DNA of 64,000 nt, taken from the NCBI GenBank assembly GCA_004321925.1, contig SCQH01000078.1, positions 1-64,000 of the forward strand, given 5' to 3'. The position numbers and the translations under genes are program-made. This document shows positions 9,340 through 17,733 of the stretch, one piece after another. Below the pieces are notes generated by a model that did not search any database, was not told the DNA's origin, and saw only the letters and a program-made list of their open reading frames with translations. This stretch comes from Nitrospirota bacterium (GTDB lineage: Bacteria > Nitrospirota > Thermodesulfovibrionia > Thermodesulfovibrionales > UBA6898). Each line of letters begins with the position of its first letter. The first letter of the stretch is position 1.

Positions 9340-10593
9340 TCAACGTTTGTTTGTCTGTTTTACCGGTATCGCAAAGGCAAACCGGCTGCCCTTCCCGGTT
9401 TCGCTTTCAGCCCAGATCTTCCCGCCGTGAAGCGCGACCAGCTGTTTCGTCAAAGCAAGGCCAAGTCCTGCGCCCCGGTATCTTTTTGTGAACGGAGATT
9501 CAAGTTGGGTGAACTCACTGAAAAGCCTTCGAATATCCTCTTCTTTGATGCCTATGCCGGTGTCTTCGACAGAAACTTCAACAAAGTTGTTGCCGGGTCC
9601 ATAGTTCACGGTCGACAGTTCACTGCTTAACCCGGTGTTGCAATGAGCTAAGACCCACGAGCTGTCCACCAGTCGCGCAGCGACATGGACTGAGCCCCCT
9701 TCAGGTGTGAATTTAACTGCATTGCCCAGGAGGTTAACAAGTATCTGTTTGAGCTTCCGTTCATCCGCTTCGATCTCGATGTCAGCATCCGGAGCTATCG
9801 TCAGTTCCAGGCTTATGACACGGGCGCTTGCCTTGCCGCCGATGAGATCAACGGACGTATTCAGTATATCCCGCAGAAGGAATCTGCTCCATTCCGGTCC
9901 GCTCAGTCCTGTTTCAGCATCTGCATAGTCCAGGACATTCATAAGAAGCTCAAGCAGTCTCCTGCCGCTGACGATGATGTCGTCCACGTATTCCTTCTGT
10001 TTGTCATTGAGCTTTCCGGAGAGCTCATCCCTCAGGATCTCGGAAAATCCGATAATGGCGTTCATCGGCGTCCTCAGCTCATGGCTCATATTTGCGATAA
10101 ATTCGGTCTTGGCACGGCTGCCTGCCTCTGCCTCAAGCTTTGCAGACTCAAGCTCCTTCGTCCTTTCCCTGACAAGCTCCTCAAGATGCTCCTGATACTC
10201 CCTGATCTTCGCCTCAGACCGGCTCTTTTCAAGGGCCCGCCTGATATGCAGCAGCAACTGGTCGATCTCGTACGGTTTCTGCAGATAGGAGAAGGCGCCC
10301 TTGTTCGTTGCCTCAATGGCCGAATCAAGCGTGGCGTTCCCGGTGAGGATGATCGCCTCTGTCAGGGGATGGTCGGCTTTTATTCTGGCAAGCACTTCCA
10401 GGCCCGACATGTCCGGGAGGCGAAGGTCGATAAGGGCCAGATCAGCCGGATCCTGATTGATCAGGGAAAGCCCCTCTGCCCCGTCCCCCGCTGCACGGGT
10501 CTGATAACCCTTCGCCCTGAGGATGTCCGAAAGGGTCTTCCTCAGATTGGGGTCATCATCGATGATCAGTATGTCGGTCTTTTTCATCGTCAT
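9340..10593 (-). CDS. Hybrid REC-histidine kinase
   Basis: 417 residues, with no membrane segment. A receiver (6-118, Asp56) is followed by a coiled coil (about 120-160), a HisKA domain with His171 in SHELRTP, and a HATPase domain (about 270-412). The receiver is nearly the same as that of the REC-GGDEF protein at 13763-14713, including a long run through [20 protein letters not shown], which points to a recent duplication. Residues about 310-337, between the N box and DTGIGI, are an insertion described separately. Its partner is unknown. Confidence 0.9.
9604..9666. repeat. Nine degenerate heptanucleotides inside the REC-HK ATPase domain
   Basis: On the plus strand this 63-bp stretch reads as consecutive 7-nt units beginning GTTCACG, GTCGACA, GTTCACT, GCTTAAC, CCGGTGT. 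It aligns unit for unit with similar stretches at 11012, 15712 and 18017, each in the same place of a kinase ATPase domain. Being 9 x 7 nt, it keeps the reading frame and adds 21 residues. Confidence 0.5.
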
Positions 10594-10641
10594 GACATAT
10601 TTCCTCCGCTGCTGACCGGCTTCAGCATGAAATCCCTCCGT

Positions 10642-10771
10642 TCACAGCCCCTTTTCGATCCTGTTCCTGCCGTTCTGTTTTACCCGAAACAGCACCGATG
10701 ATCAGGACACTCTCTTCCTTTCTGAGCCGGGGTTCGTCATCCACGCCCAGAACTGTTGTTTTGTCACCCAT
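10642..10771 (-). pseudogene. Collapsed remnant of a double-receiver / GGDEF regulator
   Basis: It starts 3 bp after the stop of the kinase at 10775. The first frame reads MGDKTTVLGVDDEPRLRK, like the start of the double-receiver protein at 14697-15470 (MGEKTKVLVVDDDRRMVR). It then reads RKEESVLII, like the linker and second-receiver start of that protein (RKEPSILIV). In the next frame, 10692-10642 reads LFRVKQNGRNRIEKGL and stops, the typical C-terminus of a GGDEF domain. Internal deletions and a frameshift thus appear to have fused the ends of once-complete genes. The first frame stays open for 49 codons, to about 10622. Confidence 0.6.
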
Positions 10772-10774
10772 GTC

Positions 10775-12859
10775 CTATGTCCTCTCACACGGCAAAAGCA
10801 GTTTAAATGTTGTCCCCTTGCTCAAACTGCTTTCAACCTCTATACAACCGCCATTGCACTCGGTCAGTCTTTTTGAGACAACGAGGCCCAGGCCTATGCC
10901 CTTTGCCTTGGTCGTAAAAAGCGGCTGAAAGAGCTTACTGATGTTTTCAGGGGAGATGCCTTCGCCGGTGTCGGCAACAGAGATTTCGATGAAATCGGCG
11001 TTCAGCTCATGGTTCGCCGCTGATAGATTAGAGCCAGTGCCTGCGCCGCCCCGAGCCTTGAGCGTTGAGCCATGAATTTGCCGTGCGCTTATTCGAAGTT
11101 GGCCGCCTTTCGGCATTGCCTGGCATGCATTCGTTATCAGGTTCTGTAAGACCTGTGACATCTGGAATGGGTCGATCCTGAGCATCGGAATTGTCCCGGG
11201 GATGTCCCGCTCTATCCTCACCTTATCAGGGACGGAGCATTTCCCGATGCTTGTGCTTATCAGTTCATCGATCGTTGTTGATCTTATCTGCGGGGTCTTC
11301 GTGCGTGAAAAATCCAGCAGGTCTGCAATGATGCGCTCGGAGTTGTTGATCTCGCTCTTTATTATGTTCAGATACTCACGCACGGTCTCATCAGACTCCG
11401 GCAAAACGGTCTTCAGGAAATATATCGCGTTGTTCATAACGCCGAGAGGGTTGCGCAGTTCGTGCCCCACGCTTCCGGCAAGTTGACCGAGAATGGCAAG
11501 CTTCTCTTTGCGCACCAGCTCTTCCTGGGCAGCGACGAGCTGAACGGTTCTCTCTTCGACCTTACGTTCGAGTTCATCGTTCAGCCTCTTGATCTCGGCT
11601 TCAGCGCGTTTCCGCACGGTGATATCCTCCACCAGCTCGATCGCTGCGATCACGTTCCCCGCACTGTCTATGAGCGGGGAAGAAACGACCCGGTAATTTA
11701 TGATTCCGCTTTCCGTCGGTGTTTCGGTTATTGACTCGTGTACCAAACCGTCCCTCAGCGTTTTGACGGTCGGACAGTACGAGCATATCTCGTCCCGCGG
11801 CGGGATATTGAATGACCGGAAGCAGATCGGTCTTTCGGCCACCTCAATAGCAGGAAACCAGTCCTTCATCTGCCTGTTCAGAGCAAGGATCTCCATCTTC
11901 GGACTGATGAGCGAGATCCCGATGCCGACGTTATCAACAACCGCTTTGTACCTCTCTTCGCTCGCCCTTAAAGCATCTTCCATGCTCTTGCGCTCGGTAA
12001 AGTCCCGGGCGATGCCGGTAGTCCCTATTACCTCACCTCTGTCGCTAAAGATGGGTGTTTTTACCGTTGATATCCAGGTCATTCTGCCTGCAGCGTCGAT
12101 GATCGCCTCCTCTATCTGTTTAGGTTTGCCGCTCTCCATCACCTCCCTGTCGTCGAGCCTGTACTTTTCGGCCAGATCCCGCGGCCAGATTTCGAAGTCG
12201 CTCATTCCCGGCAACTTATCCGGGTCTAGACCGCAGGTCCTGCTGAAAGGCCCGTTTGCAGCGATATAGCGGCCCTCTTTGTCCTTCAGCCAGGCGATGT
12301 CCGGAATGTTATTCAGTATCGCCTGCGCCTTTTCCTTCTCTTCATATATCGACCGCACGGCCGTCGACAGGGCACGGAGCGGGAAAAACTTCAGTATCGC
12401 AAAAAGAAGTATGCCGAAAATAAGACCGAGGAGAGCTGCAAAAAGGGTCTTCGTCAGGAGCGGGCGGAGTGAAGTGGTTATCTCCATGCGGCCGGCGAGA
12501 TGTCCGGAGTCGTACAGGTCGTGCGAAACAGTAAGATGCGGAGGAGCAACGGCCACGCCGTTCTGTACGATAACCGCGTTGTCGGCGTCAACTACGCTGC
12601 GCAGCTGGTCATAGAGCTTTGTCGTGTGATGTCCGAGGACCTCAGAAAGCCTGCGGTCCTCATACCGCCAATATTCAGGGCTCTCGCTGATCGCCTGGGA
12701 CAGGAAGATCGAGTTCATATATGCCTCTGTCTGGATGACCGCTTTCTGGCTCTGATAACCGAGGTAGAAATAACCAGCAGGGAGACCGACCGAGATCAGC
12801 ACCGCCAGAAGAAGGGCAAGCAGGGTCGAGACCCTTGTCAGCTTATGGATCGCAGCCAT
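10775..12859 (-). CDS. Membrane PAS-PAS histidine kinase coupled to a periplasmic binding protein
   Basis: 694 residues: transmembrane helix (about 10-33), short periplasmic domain, second helix (about 137-158), two PAS domains (about 178-300 and 304-430), coiled coil, HisKA with a GHELRNP box near residue 475, and HATPase to the end. The second PAS holds a CSYCPTVK cysteine pair of unknown role. The ATG overlaps the stop of the upstream binding-protein gene (TAATG), so the two are probably made together and may act as one sensor. It carries the ATPase-domain insertion (11012-11074). Confidence 0.9.
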   Translation of the reverse strand: MAAIHKLTRVSTLLALLLAVLISVGLPAGYFYLGYQSQKAVIQTEAYMNSIFLSQAISESPEYWRYEDRRLSEVLGHHTTKLYDQLRSVVDADNAVIVQNGVAVAPPHLTVSHDLYDSGHLAGRMEITTSLRPLLTKTLFAALLGLIFGILLFAILKFFPLRALSTAVRSIYEEKEKAQAILNNIPDIAWLKDKEGRYIAANGPFSRTCGLDPDKLPGMSDFEIWPRDLAEKYRLDDREVMESGKPKQIEEAIIDAAGRMTWISTVKTPIFSDRGEVIGTTGIARDFTERKSMEDALRASEERYKAVVDNVGIGISLISPKMEILALNRQMKDWFPAIEVAERPICFRSFNIPPRDEICSYCPTVKTLRDGLVHESITETPTESGIINYRVVSSPLIDSAGNVIAAIELVEDITVRKRAEAEIKRLNDELERKVEERTVQLVAAQEELVRKEKLAILGQLAGSVGHELRNPLGVMNNAIYFLKTVLPESDETVREYLNIIKSEINNSERIIADLLDFSRTKTPQIRSTTIDELISTSIGKCSVPDKVRIERDIPGTIPMLRIDPFQMSQVLQNLITNACQAMPKGGQLRISARQIHGSTLKARGGAGTGSNLSAANHELNADFIEISVADTGEGISPENISKLFQPLFTTKAKGIGLGLVVSKRLTECNGGCIEVESSLSKGTTFKLLLPCERT
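11012..11074. repeat. Nine degenerate heptanucleotides inside the PAS-PAS kinase ATPase domain
   Basis: The plus-strand units run GTTCGCC, GCTGATA, GATTAGA, GCCAGTG, CCTGCGC, CGCCCCG and end AGCCTTG, AGCGTTG, AGCCATG. The last three are close copies of one 7-nt unit. Same position and length as at 9604, 15712 and 18017. Confidence 0.5.
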
Positions 12860-13719
12860 TATTGTACTCCCGTGACATGGTTTCCGCTCTGCGTCAGGAT
12901 ACGCTTCCCCTCAGCTGACTTCACAAATTCGATGAATGCCTGTGAAAGGGGTGAGGATTTGGGACCGGTGAACAGGTGAAAGGGCTTGTAAAAGGGATAT
13001 CTGCCTGAGACCATGGCCCTGATATCGGGCGTGACCCCGTTGAAGGTGAGGGGGATAAGCGACCTTTTCTCTGCAATGATCTGCGAGAGCGTAGACGTAC
13101 CAAAGGCGCCGTTGACCTTTTCGAGTATGTCGCAGTTCTGCTGGTCATCCATCGCTAGGAGCAGCCCTTCACGGGATTCTGCCCGACTCACCGCATCCCT
13201 TATCTCCGGCGAAATAGCCTTCAGCATGATGGTATCAACGTCGCCCTCAGGCCGCATTAAGAGTCTGAGGGGGGTCCCGTCGGGCCACGTCCTGATCTCG
13301 CCCCGGTAGATCTTAGCGACCGTATCAGTCGTGAGGTCCATTCTCTTCCCCGACCCCGCAGTCGCGAATACAAATGGACTCCAGGCATATTCGTATTCCC
13401 GAAGACCCTGTGCGAGTTCCTGATGGCTGAGATGTCTGCCGGCCAGCCCAATATCCAGTGCCCCCTCGAGCACTGCCTTGATACCTCCCCTCGTCCCGAG
13501 ATGCTGGACAATTCTGACGATAGTGCCCGGATGCTTTTTCTGGTATGCGAGGGCCAGTTCCTTCATGCTGCCGAGCGCCCCGCCTGTCCCGCCTATTTTG
13601 ATCGTCTCGGTATCCGCAGCCGAGACGCAACCGCCTCCTGGCTGTGAAAAGAAAAAGGAAAGGACCATGATCACCCAAAAAAGCGCCGACACTCTTTTCC
13701 CGGTATCGTGCAATTTCAT
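12859..13719 (-). CDS. Periplasmic phosphate/anion-type substrate-binding protein (PBP-like)
   Basis: 286 residues. An N-terminal hydrophobic signal (about 9-28) is followed by a PstS-like fold: IKIGGTGGALGSMKELALAYQKKHPG, GALDIGLAGRHLS and late TFNGVTPDIRAMVSGRYPFYKPFHL. The ORF opens at 13833, but the ATG at 13719 with AAGGAGGG upstream gives a clean signal peptide. No permease or ATPase is nearby. The gene is coupled by TAATG to a membrane kinase, so a sensory role is more likely than uptake. A GGGC after the signal could be a weak lipobox. Ligand unknown. Confidence 0.82.
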   Translation of the reverse strand: MKLHDTGKRVSALFWVIMVLSFFFSQPGGGCVSAADTETIKIGGTGGALGSMKELALAYQKKHPGTIVRIVQHLGTRGGIKAVLEGALDIGLAGRHLSHQELAQGLREYEYAWSPFVFATAGSGKRMDLTTDTVAKIYRGEIRTWPDGTPLRLLMRPEGDVDTIMLKAISPEIRDAVSRAESREGLLLAMDDQQNCDILEKVNGAFGTSTLSQIIAEKRSLIPLTFNGVTPDIRAMVSGRYPFYKPFHLFTGPKSSPLSQAFIEFVKSAEGKRILTQSGNHVTGVQ

Positions 13720-13762
13720 AACATCCCTCCTTATTACAGAGCTTTTCATACAGACCATAAAT

Positions 13763-14713
13763 TCACCCGCACGGCCAGGCCTCGACCCGGTTCCTTCCCT
13801 TGTTCTTCGCTTCATACAGGGCCTTGTCCGCATTCTCGATCAGCTGCTCTTTCGTTGCGATGTCTGCCGAGAATGAGGATACCCCGATGCTTATCGTGAC
13901 CCCGGCCTCAGACTCGACCACTCTTCTCAGCCGCTCGGCAGCCATGCAGGCGTGATCGCGATCGGTCCCTGGCAGCATGACCAGAAACTCCTCACCTCCG
14001 AATCTGAAAACATAGTCGGCGGTCCTGACGGTCTCCAGTACCGTTTGAGCAAACCTCACAAGCAGGCTGTCCCCCTCGACGTGTCCGCGCGTGTCGTTAT
14101 AGAGCTTGAAATGGTCTATGTCCAGCATGATGACCGAAAGCAGCTGACCGTAGCGCTTCGCGGCAGCATAGTGTTTCTCCAGCTGGACCTCAAGAAATCT
14201 CCTGTTGGCGAGTCCCGTCAGGGGATCGTGGAGAGAAGAGAAGTTTGCTTTTGTATAGAGGACCCTCAACTCCGTATTGATCTTTTTCAGTTCAGTGCTC
14301 TGCAGGAGGATCTTCCGGTCTGCCTCCCGTTTTTCGACAGCACGTTTTATATGCAGCAGCAGCTGATCGACATCATACGGTTTCTGCAGGTAGGAAAAGG
14401 CGCCTTTGTTCGTTGCCTCGATCGCTGAATCCAGGGTGGCATTTCCGGTAAGGATGATGGCCTCTGCGGATGGGCGTGAGGCCTTTACCTTATTCAGCAC
14501 CTCGATCCCGGGGATGTCAGGGAGCCCCAGGTCGATGAGCACGACATCGAAGGAACACTGCCTCACCAGGGAAAGCCCCTCTGCCGCGTCTTTGGCAGTC
14601 AGCGTTTCATAGCCTTTTGCCCCGAGGATGTCCGAAAGGGTCTTCCTCAGATTGGGATCATCGTCGATGATCAGTATCCCGGCTTTGGTTAAAATGTTAC
14701 TCTTCTCTGTCAC
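13763..14713 (-). CDS. REC-GGDEF response regulator, probable diguanylate cyclase (WspR-like)
   Basis: 316 residues. A receiver (11-125, Asp61) is joined by a short helical linker to a GGDEF domain (about 155-312) with an intact GGEEF active site (239-243). An RTAD inhibitory site (230-233) lies exactly five residues before it. It should make cyclic di-GMP from two GTP when phosphorylated and be product-inhibited. The layout matches WspR, the output of Wsp systems. It overlaps the double-receiver gene by 17 bp. Its receiver is a recent paralogue of that at 9340-10593. Confidence 0.92.
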   Translation of the reverse strand: MTEKSNILTKAGILIIDDDPNLRKTLSDILGAKGYETLTAKDAAEGLSLVRQCSFDVVLIDLGLPDIPGIEVLNKVKASRPSAEAIILTGNATLDSAIEATNKGAFSYLQKPYDVDQLLLHIKRAVEKREADRKILLQSTELKKINTELRVLYTKANFSSLHDPLTGLANRRFLEVQLEKHYAAAKRYGQLLSVIMLDIDHFKLYNDTRGHVEGDSLLVRFAQTVLETVRTADYVFRFGGEEFLVMLPGTDRDHACMAAERLRRVVESEAGVTISIGVSSFSADIATKEQLIENADKALYEAKNKGRNRVEAWPCG

Positions 14714-15470
14714 GGAATGTCTCCCCGAGCACGTGCCTGAGCTTTTTCCTGCCTATTTCCCTGATCGTATCCAGCAGCCCTTCCATCTCAAAAGGCTTAT
14801 ACAGACAGGTATACGCCCCGATCTTAAGTCCTTTTTCAATCGAAGCCGACATTTCATCTCTGTACCCGGTCACCAGCACGACCGGCTTTGTGGGATATCT
14901 GGAGCGCACGGCCTTCAGGACCTCCAGTCCGTCCGTATCGCCGATCTTAAGGTCGAGCAGGACCGCCAGTTTGTAATCCTGCTCCATATGCCCGAGGACA
15001 TTTTCAGGATCCGCCTCGGTCTCGACCCGGTAACCCCGGGACCGCAGGACACCGCCGACGGTCTCCGAAAAGGTCGGGTCATCATCCACGATCAGGATGC
15101 TCGGTTCTTTCCTCAGAAGAGAAAGGAAAGAAAAGACCATCTGAAGGTCAATTGGTTTTGTCATCACCGTTTCCGCACCACTTTTTTTGGCTTCCTCAAC
15201 CTGCTCCTCCGTTGTATAGGCGCTCATCAGTACGATCGGAAGATCAGGGGAAATGTCCTTTATCATTTTCAGGGCTTCAACGCCATTGATCCCCGGCATC
15301 TTGATGTCCATCAGCACACAGTCAGGATGGCCGGACTTCACCTGCTCAACCGCTTCCTCGCCGCTGAATGCTTCTGCAGCTTCATACCCCTTCACCTTCA
15401 GGATGTCGCAGATCGTCCTGACCATCCTCCTGTCGTCATCCACGACAAGTACTTTTGTCTTTTCCCCCAT
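14697..15470 (-). CDS. Double-receiver (REC-REC) response regulator
   Basis: 257 residues forming two tandem receivers (about 5-118 and 124-240). Acceptor Asp sites are visible in CVLMDIKMPG and AVLLDLKIGDTDG; the second lacks the usual Pro after Asp. A short basic-acidic tail follows and there is no output domain. It overlaps the upstream kinase gene by 35 bp and the downstream REC-GGDEF by 17 bp. It may act as a phosphate relay or sink between kinase and cyclase. That role is inferred from context. Confidence 0.88.
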   Translation of the reverse strand: MGEKTKVLVVDDDRRMVRTICDILKVKGYEAAEAFSGEEAVEQVKSGHPDCVLMDIKMPGINGVEALKMIKDISPDLPIVLMSAYTTEEQVEEAKKSGAETVMTKPIDLQMVFSFLSLLRKEPSILIVDDDPTFSETVGGVLRSRGYRVETEADPENVLGHMEQDYKLAVLLDLKIGDTDGLEVLKAVRSRYPTKPVVLVTGYRDEMSASIEKGLKIGAYTCLYKPFEMEGLLDTIREIGRKKLRHVLGETFRDREE

Positions 15471-17733
15471 CTTTCATCCCCCTTTCGCACGGCAGTATCA
15501 CCGTAAATGTTGTCCCCTTGCCCCATTGGCTTTCCACTGCTATTGTTCCGCCGTTGGCCTCTATCAGATTCTTTGCAACGGGCAGACCCAGCCCTATGCC
15601 CCGTGCCTTTGTGGTAAACAGAGGCTGGAACAGTTTATTCATATTCTCCGGGGGTATGCCCGCCCCCGTATCAGTGACCGAGATTGCGATGGAATCAGCG
15701 TTCGGTTCATGGCTCTCGGCTGACCGTTCACCGCCCGTATCAGTCGGGTCCTGTGCCATTGGCTGCGTGCCATAAACTTGTTTTGCTTGTATCTTCAGTT
15801 CTCCCCCGGCCGGCATCGCCTGAACCGCATTGGTGATAAGACTCTGAAAAACCTGGCCAAGCTGCAGCGGATCTGCCATTACCGGCGGAAGCGCGTCAGG
15901 AACAGCAACCTGAAGCGAAATATTCGGCGGGATTGTGCAGACCCCGAGGCTCTGCCGTATGATCTGATCAGCTGCGACCAGATCTTTCTGCGGTACCCTC
16001 GTCCTCGTAAAATCCACGAGATCGGTTATTATCCGCTGTGAGGTGTTCACCTCGCCCTTGATAATATCGAGATATTCCCTGACCGTCTCGTCGGCATCCG
16101 GCATTTTGGTCTGCAGATAATAAACAGCATTGCTTATGACGCCCAGGGGATTGCGCAGCTCATGTCCGACACTCTCCGAGAGCTGACCAAGGGTGGCCAG
16201 CTTCTCTTTGCGGAGAAGCTCCTCCTGCGCGTCGAGGAGCTGTTTTGTCCTTTTTTCGACTTTCGCCTCAAGTTCTTCATTCAACTTCCTGATCTTCAGC
16301 TCGGCACGTTTGCGCTCGGTGATGTCCATGGCAATACCCCTGATCCCGGTGATCCGGTTTTCATGAAGGACAGGCGAGGCTGAAAGGAGGACCGGGAATG
16401 CAGTGCCGTCCTTTCTTCGCGCCGTGAATTCAACCCGGTCAATGGCCTCCCCGCTCAAGACCTGTTGTAAATATTCACCGACCCTGGCCAGTTCTTCCGG
16501 CACAAACATCTGAAGTGAGTTTACCCCCCTGCTGAGATCATCCAGGGTATATCCCATATTCTCAAGGGCATGCCGGTTTAAAAAAAGTATACTTCCTTTA
16601 TCGTCAGTCTCAAAAACAAACTGCGGCAATAATTCAGCCAGGTCCTTAAATTTCTTTTCGCTCTCTTTCAGTCCCAGGGCCATACCATTGAATGCCTCTG
16701 CCAGCCGGCCTAACTCGTCCTTCGACCTGACCTGAACAGTGATATCGAGATTCCCCTTCCCGATTTCGGCAGCGGCTGCGACCAGTTCTTTTAACGGTTC
16801 AGTAACAACTCGCGAAAATATGAGGGTGCTGAGAAGGGCGGCAATACCGATAGCAGAATAAATGAGGATATGTTTGTCTCTTTGCTCGAGAGTGGCGGCA
16901 AAAGCAACATTGACAGGGGTGCAGATGGTCAGGATCCATTCGTTCCCCTTAAAGTCCTGATAACCGCGTTCTCTGGCAAAAGCGGTGATCTCTTCCCCGT
17001 CTTTATACAGATGCCGAGCGCTTCCCCTGCTCTCACCTGAAGACAGCAGTTTCTGCAGGGTCGCCCAATCGTCAGATTTTTCTTTCAATGCCTCCTCTGT
17101 GTCATAGCTTGAATAGAGCACCACCCCTTCCCTGTCCAGCAGCTCGACCTTCGGCCGCTCCCCGCTTTTGCCGGGGCGGATCGTTTCTTCTGCAATGGCA
17201 TACAGAGTGTCGACAGGCATCCTTGACACAACAACGCCGACCGGCCTGTCATTGGCAGCCCTGACAAGGGACGCAAAATACATTACGGGCTTATTCACGG
17301 ATTCGGACATCGTTATTATCAGAACGAAGTCCTTGCCTTCGGCAATGCCGGGCCAGTATCCTGTAAAAGGATTCTGTCTGCCGATCTTTGCACCTGAAGT
17401 GTCGGCTATCCTTACCCGATTTAAATCAAAAAAAGAGAGCGAGGCATAAAACAAATACCTTTCCTGATAATCCTTCAGCCTTTTCGTGATCATTTCCGGG
17501 GTGGAGCTTTTGGAGACGATCAGGGGATCGGAGGCCAAAACCTTCATGTCTGCATACCGCTCAAAAAGCATCCGGTCGATCTTATCCATGGTATGATATG
17601 CCTGGTCTTCCAGTTTTTCCCTTATCTGCGCTTCCAGGATCTTTGTTTCTGCCCTGTAATTGACATACCCCATAACCCCGAAGCAGGCCAGCACGATCAG
17701 GATAAATGAGGTAAGTTTTGTCGAGAATTTCAT
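15436..17733 (-). CDS. Membrane sensor kinase with Cache-type periplasmic domain, HAMP and PAS
   Basis: 765 residues: transmembrane helix (7-28), large periplasmic domain of double-Cache type (about 30-280, with LFYASLSFFDLNRVRIADTSG and PVMYFASLVRA), second helix (about 285-305), HAMP (about 306-360), PAS (about 365-485), coiled coil, HisKA with GHELRNP and HATPase. Cache domains usually bind small extracellular molecules; the ligand is not deducible. The ATPase domain holds the 28-residue insertion. The gene overlaps the double-receiver gene, which suggests the two are partners. Confidence 0.9.
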   Translation of the reverse strand: MKFSTKLTSFILIVLACFGVMGYVNYRAETKILEAQIREKLEDQAYHTMDKIDRMLFERYADMKVLASDPLIVSKSSTPEMITKRLKDYQERYLFYASLSFFDLNRVRIADTSGAKIGRQNPFTGYWPGIAEGKDFVLIITMSESVNKPVMYFASLVRAANDRPVGVVVSRMPVDTLYAIAEETIRPGKSGERPKVELLDREGVVLYSSYDTEEALKEKSDDWATLQKLLSSGESRGSARHLYKDGEEITAFARERGYQDFKGNEWILTICTPVNVAFAATLEQRDKHILIYSAIGIAALLSTLIFSRVVTEPLKELVAAAAEIGKGNLDITVQVRSKDELGRLAEAFNGMALGLKESEKKFKDLAELLPQFVFETDDKGSILFLNRHALENMGYTLDDLSRGVNSLQMFVPEELARVGEYLQQVLSGEAIDRVEFTARRKDGTAFPVLLSASPVLHENRITGIRGIAMDITERKRAELKIRKLNEELEAKVEKRTKQLLDAQEELLRKEKLATLGQLSESVGHELRNPLGVISNAVYYLQTKMPDADETVREYLDIIKGEVNTSQRIITDLVDFTRTRVPQKDLVAADQIIRQSLGVCTIPPNISLQVAVPDALPPVMADPLQLGQVFQSLITNAVQAMPAGGELKIQAKQVYGTQPMAQDPTDTGGERSAESHEPNADSIAISVTDTGAGIPPENMNKLFQPLFTTKARGIGLGLPVAKNLIEANGGTIAVESQWGKGTTFTVILPCERGMKDGGKDKSTCRG
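15712..15774. repeat. Nine degenerate heptanucleotides inside the Cache-kinase ATPase domain
   Basis: The plus-strand units run GCTCTCG, GCTGACC, GTTCACC, GCCCGTA, TCAGTCG, GGTCCTG, TGCCATT, GGCTGCG, TGCCATA. It is aligned without gaps to the other three kinase copies at the protein level. Confidence 0.5.

Follow-up and report, generated by a model that had tools for sequence, protein, structure and literature searches.

The locus and its genes

The window, a 64 kb stretch of DNA, carries on its minus strand a signalling operon in which an open frame of 49 codons lies between two intact sensor-kinase genes, P0003 and P0002 (Table 1). The frame starts three bases past the stop of kinase P0003; its codons 1-13 match the start of the REC-REC gene P0006, codons 16 to about 26 match the linker between two receivers and the start of the second one, and the end of a GGDEF domain follows in another frame. 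The recognisable relic comprises about 130 bases and reaches 10642, and the open frame itself ends at 10622. A preliminary description of this DNA had reported three colinear fragments after the kinase and a surviving 49-codon frame; both are borne out, as each fragment scores above all of its shuffles (0/1000, 0/1000 and 0/5000), a check that had been set in advance as a possible refutation. No promoter-like or terminator-like sites were found in 10500-10900.

An intact order of kinase, REC-REC and REC-GGDEF genes, which had been placed at 13763-17733, is confirmed by Pfam matches of P0007, P0006 and P0005 (the dCache_1 match of P0007 scores below the curated cut-off). Within this module P0007 overlaps P0006 at 15436-15470 and P0006 overlaps P0005 at 14697-14713. 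The longest frame of P0004 overlaps P0005 at 13763-13833; the alignment of its counterpart in G008, a related genome of the same family, begins only at residue 39, so the real start of P0004 is probably further in. Both genomes have a PBP_like_2 protein between their two kinase modules; it immediately precedes a kinase and may be the sensor partner of that kinase. The REC-kinase P0002 and the REC-HD protein P0009 (7735-10593 of the window) are also neighbours in another genome, G006 (L086 4367-7184), where their copies are 62% and 64% identical to them and have no REC-REC gene ahead.

Table 1. Coordinates of the relic, of the intact genes around it and of related genes at other loci
Feature	Location	Coordinates	Strand	Basis
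Piece 1, start of REC-REC gene, ATG to first acidic residues, MGDKTTVLGVDDE	window	10734..10771	-	base identity, shuffles
Piece 2, inter-receiver linker and second-receiver start (LRKEESVLII)	window	10696..10731	-	same frame as piece 1
Piece 3, last 17 residues and stop of GGDEF domain, VLFRVKQNGRNRIEKGL	window	10642..10695	-	other frame; profile score
Surviving open frame over relic, 49 codons	window	10622..10771	-	frame of pieces 1 and 2, not of piece 3
P0002, REC-HisKA-HATPase protein, intact, directly downstream of relic	window	9340..10593	-	Pfam
P0003, histidine kinase (PAS, HisKA, HATPase), intact, directly upstream of relic	window	10775..12859	-	Pfam
P0004, periplasmic-binding-like protein between the two modules	window	12859..13833	-	PBP_like_2; frame from first ATG
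P0005, REC-GGDEF gene, intact	window	13763..14713	-	Pfam
P0006, REC-REC gene, intact, behind the other kinase	window	14697..15470	-	two Response_reg stretches
P0007, histidine kinase (dCache, HAMP, PAS, HisKA, HATPase), ahead of P0006	window	15436..17733	-	Pfam
PBP_like_2 protein	G008, L052	8579-9439
Kinase	G008, L052	9439-11523
REC-REC gene (252 codons), relative of P0006	G008, L052	11548-12306
REC-kinase	G008, L052	12325-13602
REC-REC relative	L089	7243-8007
REC-REC relative	L016	2009-2791
REC-REC relative	L014	12374-13126
REC-REC relative	L013	9996-10748
REC-REC relative	L090	5501-6256

Remnants of a REC-REC gene

The pieces were compared as DNA with intact genes, using 1000 dinucleotide shuffles per comparison. 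Piece 1 is identical to P0006 at 31 of 38 bases and likewise to the REC-REC gene of G008 at 31 of 38; tested over 10733-10771, it scores 24 against either gene, with shuffle maxima of 15.5 and 16 and no shuffle of 1000 reaching its score in either case. Piece 2, tested over 10684-10733, scores 28 against the G008 gene (29 of 36 bases identical; shuffle maximum 14.5) and 15 against P0006 (24 of 36 bases identical; reached by 2/1000 shuffles), which makes the alignment to P0006 the weaker comparison. Since the linker is nearer to G008 and the start piece equally near to both, the relic is not assignable to the P0006 copy in particular. The alignment of the relic to 13763-15470 that had been proposed thus holds for piece 1, is weaker for piece 2 and fails for piece 3 (reached by 87/1000 shuffles). 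When the whole relic was aligned end to end with long gaps nearly free, pieces 1 and 2 fitted the G008 gene well and the rest was scattered and unused past the linker.

Between pieces 1 and 2 the first receiver has lost about 103 codons, yet the two pieces share one frame; the first deletion is therefore in frame, and of the frameshift described earlier only the change of frame into piece 3 stands. Three marks of a REC-REC pseudogene are found: significant similarity to an intact gene (0/1000 for both pieces against G008), a relative (G008) whose intact orthologue occupies this position, and loss of the domain, the 49 residues of the frame having no Response_reg match.

At five of the 24 relic codons the amino acid differs from the one common to G008 and P0006; the first receiver strand carries G in place of V, and codon 24, the last one, right where the GGDEF piece joins, carries G in place of D, the second receiver's first acidic residue. 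Against G008 the pieces give a pN of 0.14 and a pS of 0.37, over only 24 codons, too few to judge selection. The pieces still look constrained, a point counted against their being a relic, and the apparent constraint implies either that the decay is recent or that those particular codons have been retained.

The intact counterpart in a related genome

At the corresponding place in G008, a kinase gene is followed by one for a periplasmic-binding-like protein and then by the orthologue of P0003; an intact REC-REC gene comes next, and after it the orthologue of P0002. Identities to the genes of the window are 74% for P0004 (from residue 39 on), 74% for P0003 (694 amino acids in both genomes), 67% for P0006 and 61% for P0002. 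The relic occupies the exact place of the intact REC-REC gene of G008 and is accordingly the product of ordinary gene decay in a signalling operon, the remains of deleted response-regulator genes. The shrinkage by internal deletions that had been proposed is supported by the remnants of both genes together with this intact gene. A search for an intact copy in sister genomes had been proposed as a check; G008 provides it for the REC-REC gene, and the GGDEF gene is missing there. An assembly fault at the relic is possible in a genome of 120 contigs and was counted against this reading; even so, the stretch 10622-10771 is very probably a deletion relic.

The locus has a narrow distribution. Of 61 relatives, 2 have P0003 (E cut-off 1e-60), as do 2 of 395 genomes drawn from the phylum (1e-130), and the REC-REC protein was found in 2 of 27 genomes of the family (1e-25), 4 of 176 of the order (1e-40) and 3 of 230 of the class (1e-55), the genome under study being included in every count. 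The four other genomes of the same genus gave no kinase or REC-REC match at these cut-offs. Because G008 is the only relative that holds the locus, the direction and timing of the loss rest on two genomes.

The order of kinase, REC-REC and REC-output genes is old. REC-REC relatives occur in 6 of 45 loci compared; a kinase gene lies directly upstream in all six and a REC gene comes next in five, the sixth (G034) having an HD-type gene after REC-REC, as judged by eye. Two of these loci, L013 and L014, are near-duplicates with REC-REC proteins 97% identical. Outputs of the third gene vary: G008 and G116 have a kinase there, and L016, judged by eye, has an NtrC-like activator. On this pattern, a REC-REC gene is to be expected behind kinase P0003. 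Examples of the cassette range from this order to Chloroflexi, their REC-REC proteins being 35-67% identical to P0006, and searches of a library of papers for tandem receivers gave no name for it.

History of the duplicated genes

A tree of the kinase core gave no resolution, and the tree that resolved the kinases added the PAS part for most rows and left out two long-branched rows, G034 and G116. P0003 groups with the downstream kinase of G008 (support 100/100), a sister relationship of P0003 and P0007 relative to G008 is rejected (p-AU 6.8e-05), and a grouping of P0007 with the upstream kinase of G008 has a p-AU of 0.287. The kinase pair is therefore older than the split from G008. Over the kinase core, orthologues are 69% identical and paralogues 57-61%; the REC-REC proteins P0006 and G008, at 67%, are near the level of their orthologous neighbours (61-74%), and the kinase pair thus probably predates the REC-REC copy.

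A finer history, which would be part of the deletion account and no alternative to it, is that the ancestor had a REC-REC gene behind each kinase, of which this lineage lost the downstream copy and G008 the upstream copy. Each genome does retain exactly one REC-REC gene, behind different kinases, the two kinases are old in both, and the linker piece resembles G008 more closely than P0006; however, the P0006 and G008 proteins are as near to each other as true orthologues, unlike the kinase paralogues, and counts of shared sites over 74 bases (10 for relic and G008, 5 for relic and P0006, 8 for G008 and P0006) do not separate the three copies. Such reciprocal losses can be entertained, if somewhat unlikely.

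In the preliminary description, the operon had doubled its kinase, REC-REC and REC-GGDEF genes as one unit, the second copy of which collapsed. The pieces of the relic do have the order of the intact module, and the two kinase ends share an identical stretch of DNA, CAAGGGGACAACATTTA, shortly before the REC-REC start. Copies made together in this lineage should nonetheless include sister kinases, contrary to the tree, and the divergence of the REC-REC genes is far below that of the kinase pair. G008, moreover, has two kinases and one REC-REC gene, with no GGDEF gene at this site, and the receiver of P0002 is 73% identical to that of its G008 counterpart, versus 66% and 60% for these two against the receiver of P0005. 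These results do not fit a single event that doubled the entire module in this lineage, and such an event is improbable.

The tail of a GGDEF gene

Read as protein in frame 2 (SSVLFRVKQNGRNRI), piece 3 scores 30.0 bits with a profile built from 23 GGDEF C-termini, and none of 5000 shuffles, of which the best gave 10.7 bits, came near it. It is the second-best site for this profile in the window, after the intact GGDEF gene (48.1 bits), and chance sites reach 10.3. Piece 3 therefore contains the C-terminal helix motif of the GGDEF domain (PF00990). As DNA it has no significant similarity to P0005 (score 12.0). The GGDEF end reported earlier is thus present after the change of frame, with about 17 residues plus a stop instead of the 16 residues claimed; the relic holds the tail alone, and the GG(D/E)EF active site is absent from it. 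This site in G008 lacks a GGDEF gene, so all that the tail proves is the former presence of some GGDEF gene at the site of the relic.

That piece 3 is instead the end of the second receiver, so that only one gene was lost, was considered after the residues IEKGL had been seen both in it and near the end of P0006, in keeping with the lone REC-REC gene of G008, and was dropped as very improbable on the shuffle test, in which its score of 10.0 against the REC-REC gene of G008 or P0006 was reached by 582/1000 and 594/1000 shuffles, with the GGDEF profile being matched instead.

The surviving open frame

The 49-codon frame belongs to no Pfam family and has no convincing relative among 26 other genomes of the family; its single match (in G016, E 0.21) contains an internal stop and was taken as chance. 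A relative sharing the same short gene, sought as a refutation of the decay account, was likewise not encountered in those 26 genomes. The frame is most likely a functionless deletion relic: it is scarcely credible as a working small protein derived from the receiver start, since its second half is the GGDEF tail read out of frame and receiver core residues have changed, even though the start codon, the spacing after the kinase stop and the in-frame character of the first deletion are all kept. It is similarly far-fetched that the frame is translated and has been kept as a small protein which bears the lost partner's first receiver strand and modulates kinase P0003.

Loss of the response regulators and its probable consequence

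In the ancestor, a REC-REC gene and a GGDEF gene would have stood one after the other between kinase P0003 and the REC-kinase P0002. A second REC-REC copy behind P0007 may have made the first copy dispensable, whereupon at least two deletions would have occurred, one of about 0.3 kb confined to the REC-REC gene, the other larger and stretching from the second receiver to near the end of the GGDEF gene. Of the REC-REC gene the window retains only the first 13 codons and about 11 middle codons, joined in frame and followed by the GGDEF tail in another frame. Besides the codons of the first receiver, the second receiver and the GGDEF gene are gone almost entirely. The 49-codon frame would be a by-product that retains the start codon and the first codons, with no function to be expected of it. 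Since the flanking kinase genes are intact, signalling may have passed to P0006 or P0002, one of which is probably the present partner of P0003.

Pseudogenes of two-component systems that arose via small indels and frameshifts are described in a survey of myxobacteria (PMC4603909). Judged by what that survey reports of them, the locus is alike in the loss of a response regulator by indels and a frameshift inside a kinase operon and in the lineage-specific nature of the loss relative to a related genome; it differs in that two adjoining genes have been cut to about 130 bases and that another intact REC-REC gene is present in the same operon. With the intact cassettes of G008, G116, a member of the Syntrophaceae (L016) and Chloroflexi (L013/L014), the locus shares the gene order and the REC-REC relationship, but in those cassettes the REC-REC gene is whole and the third gene has other output domains, and that of G008 has no GGDEF gene between the REC-REC and REC-kinase genes.

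The relic is one more ordinary case of known two-component gene loss, well supported by an intact counterpart, and offers a small, clean example of such turnover. For annotators it is a warning that the 49-codon frame should not be called a gene. Through two relatives at the level of the family it documents how a kinase operon can give up a response regulator and still keep its kinase intact, with a paralogue from that operon that could take over.
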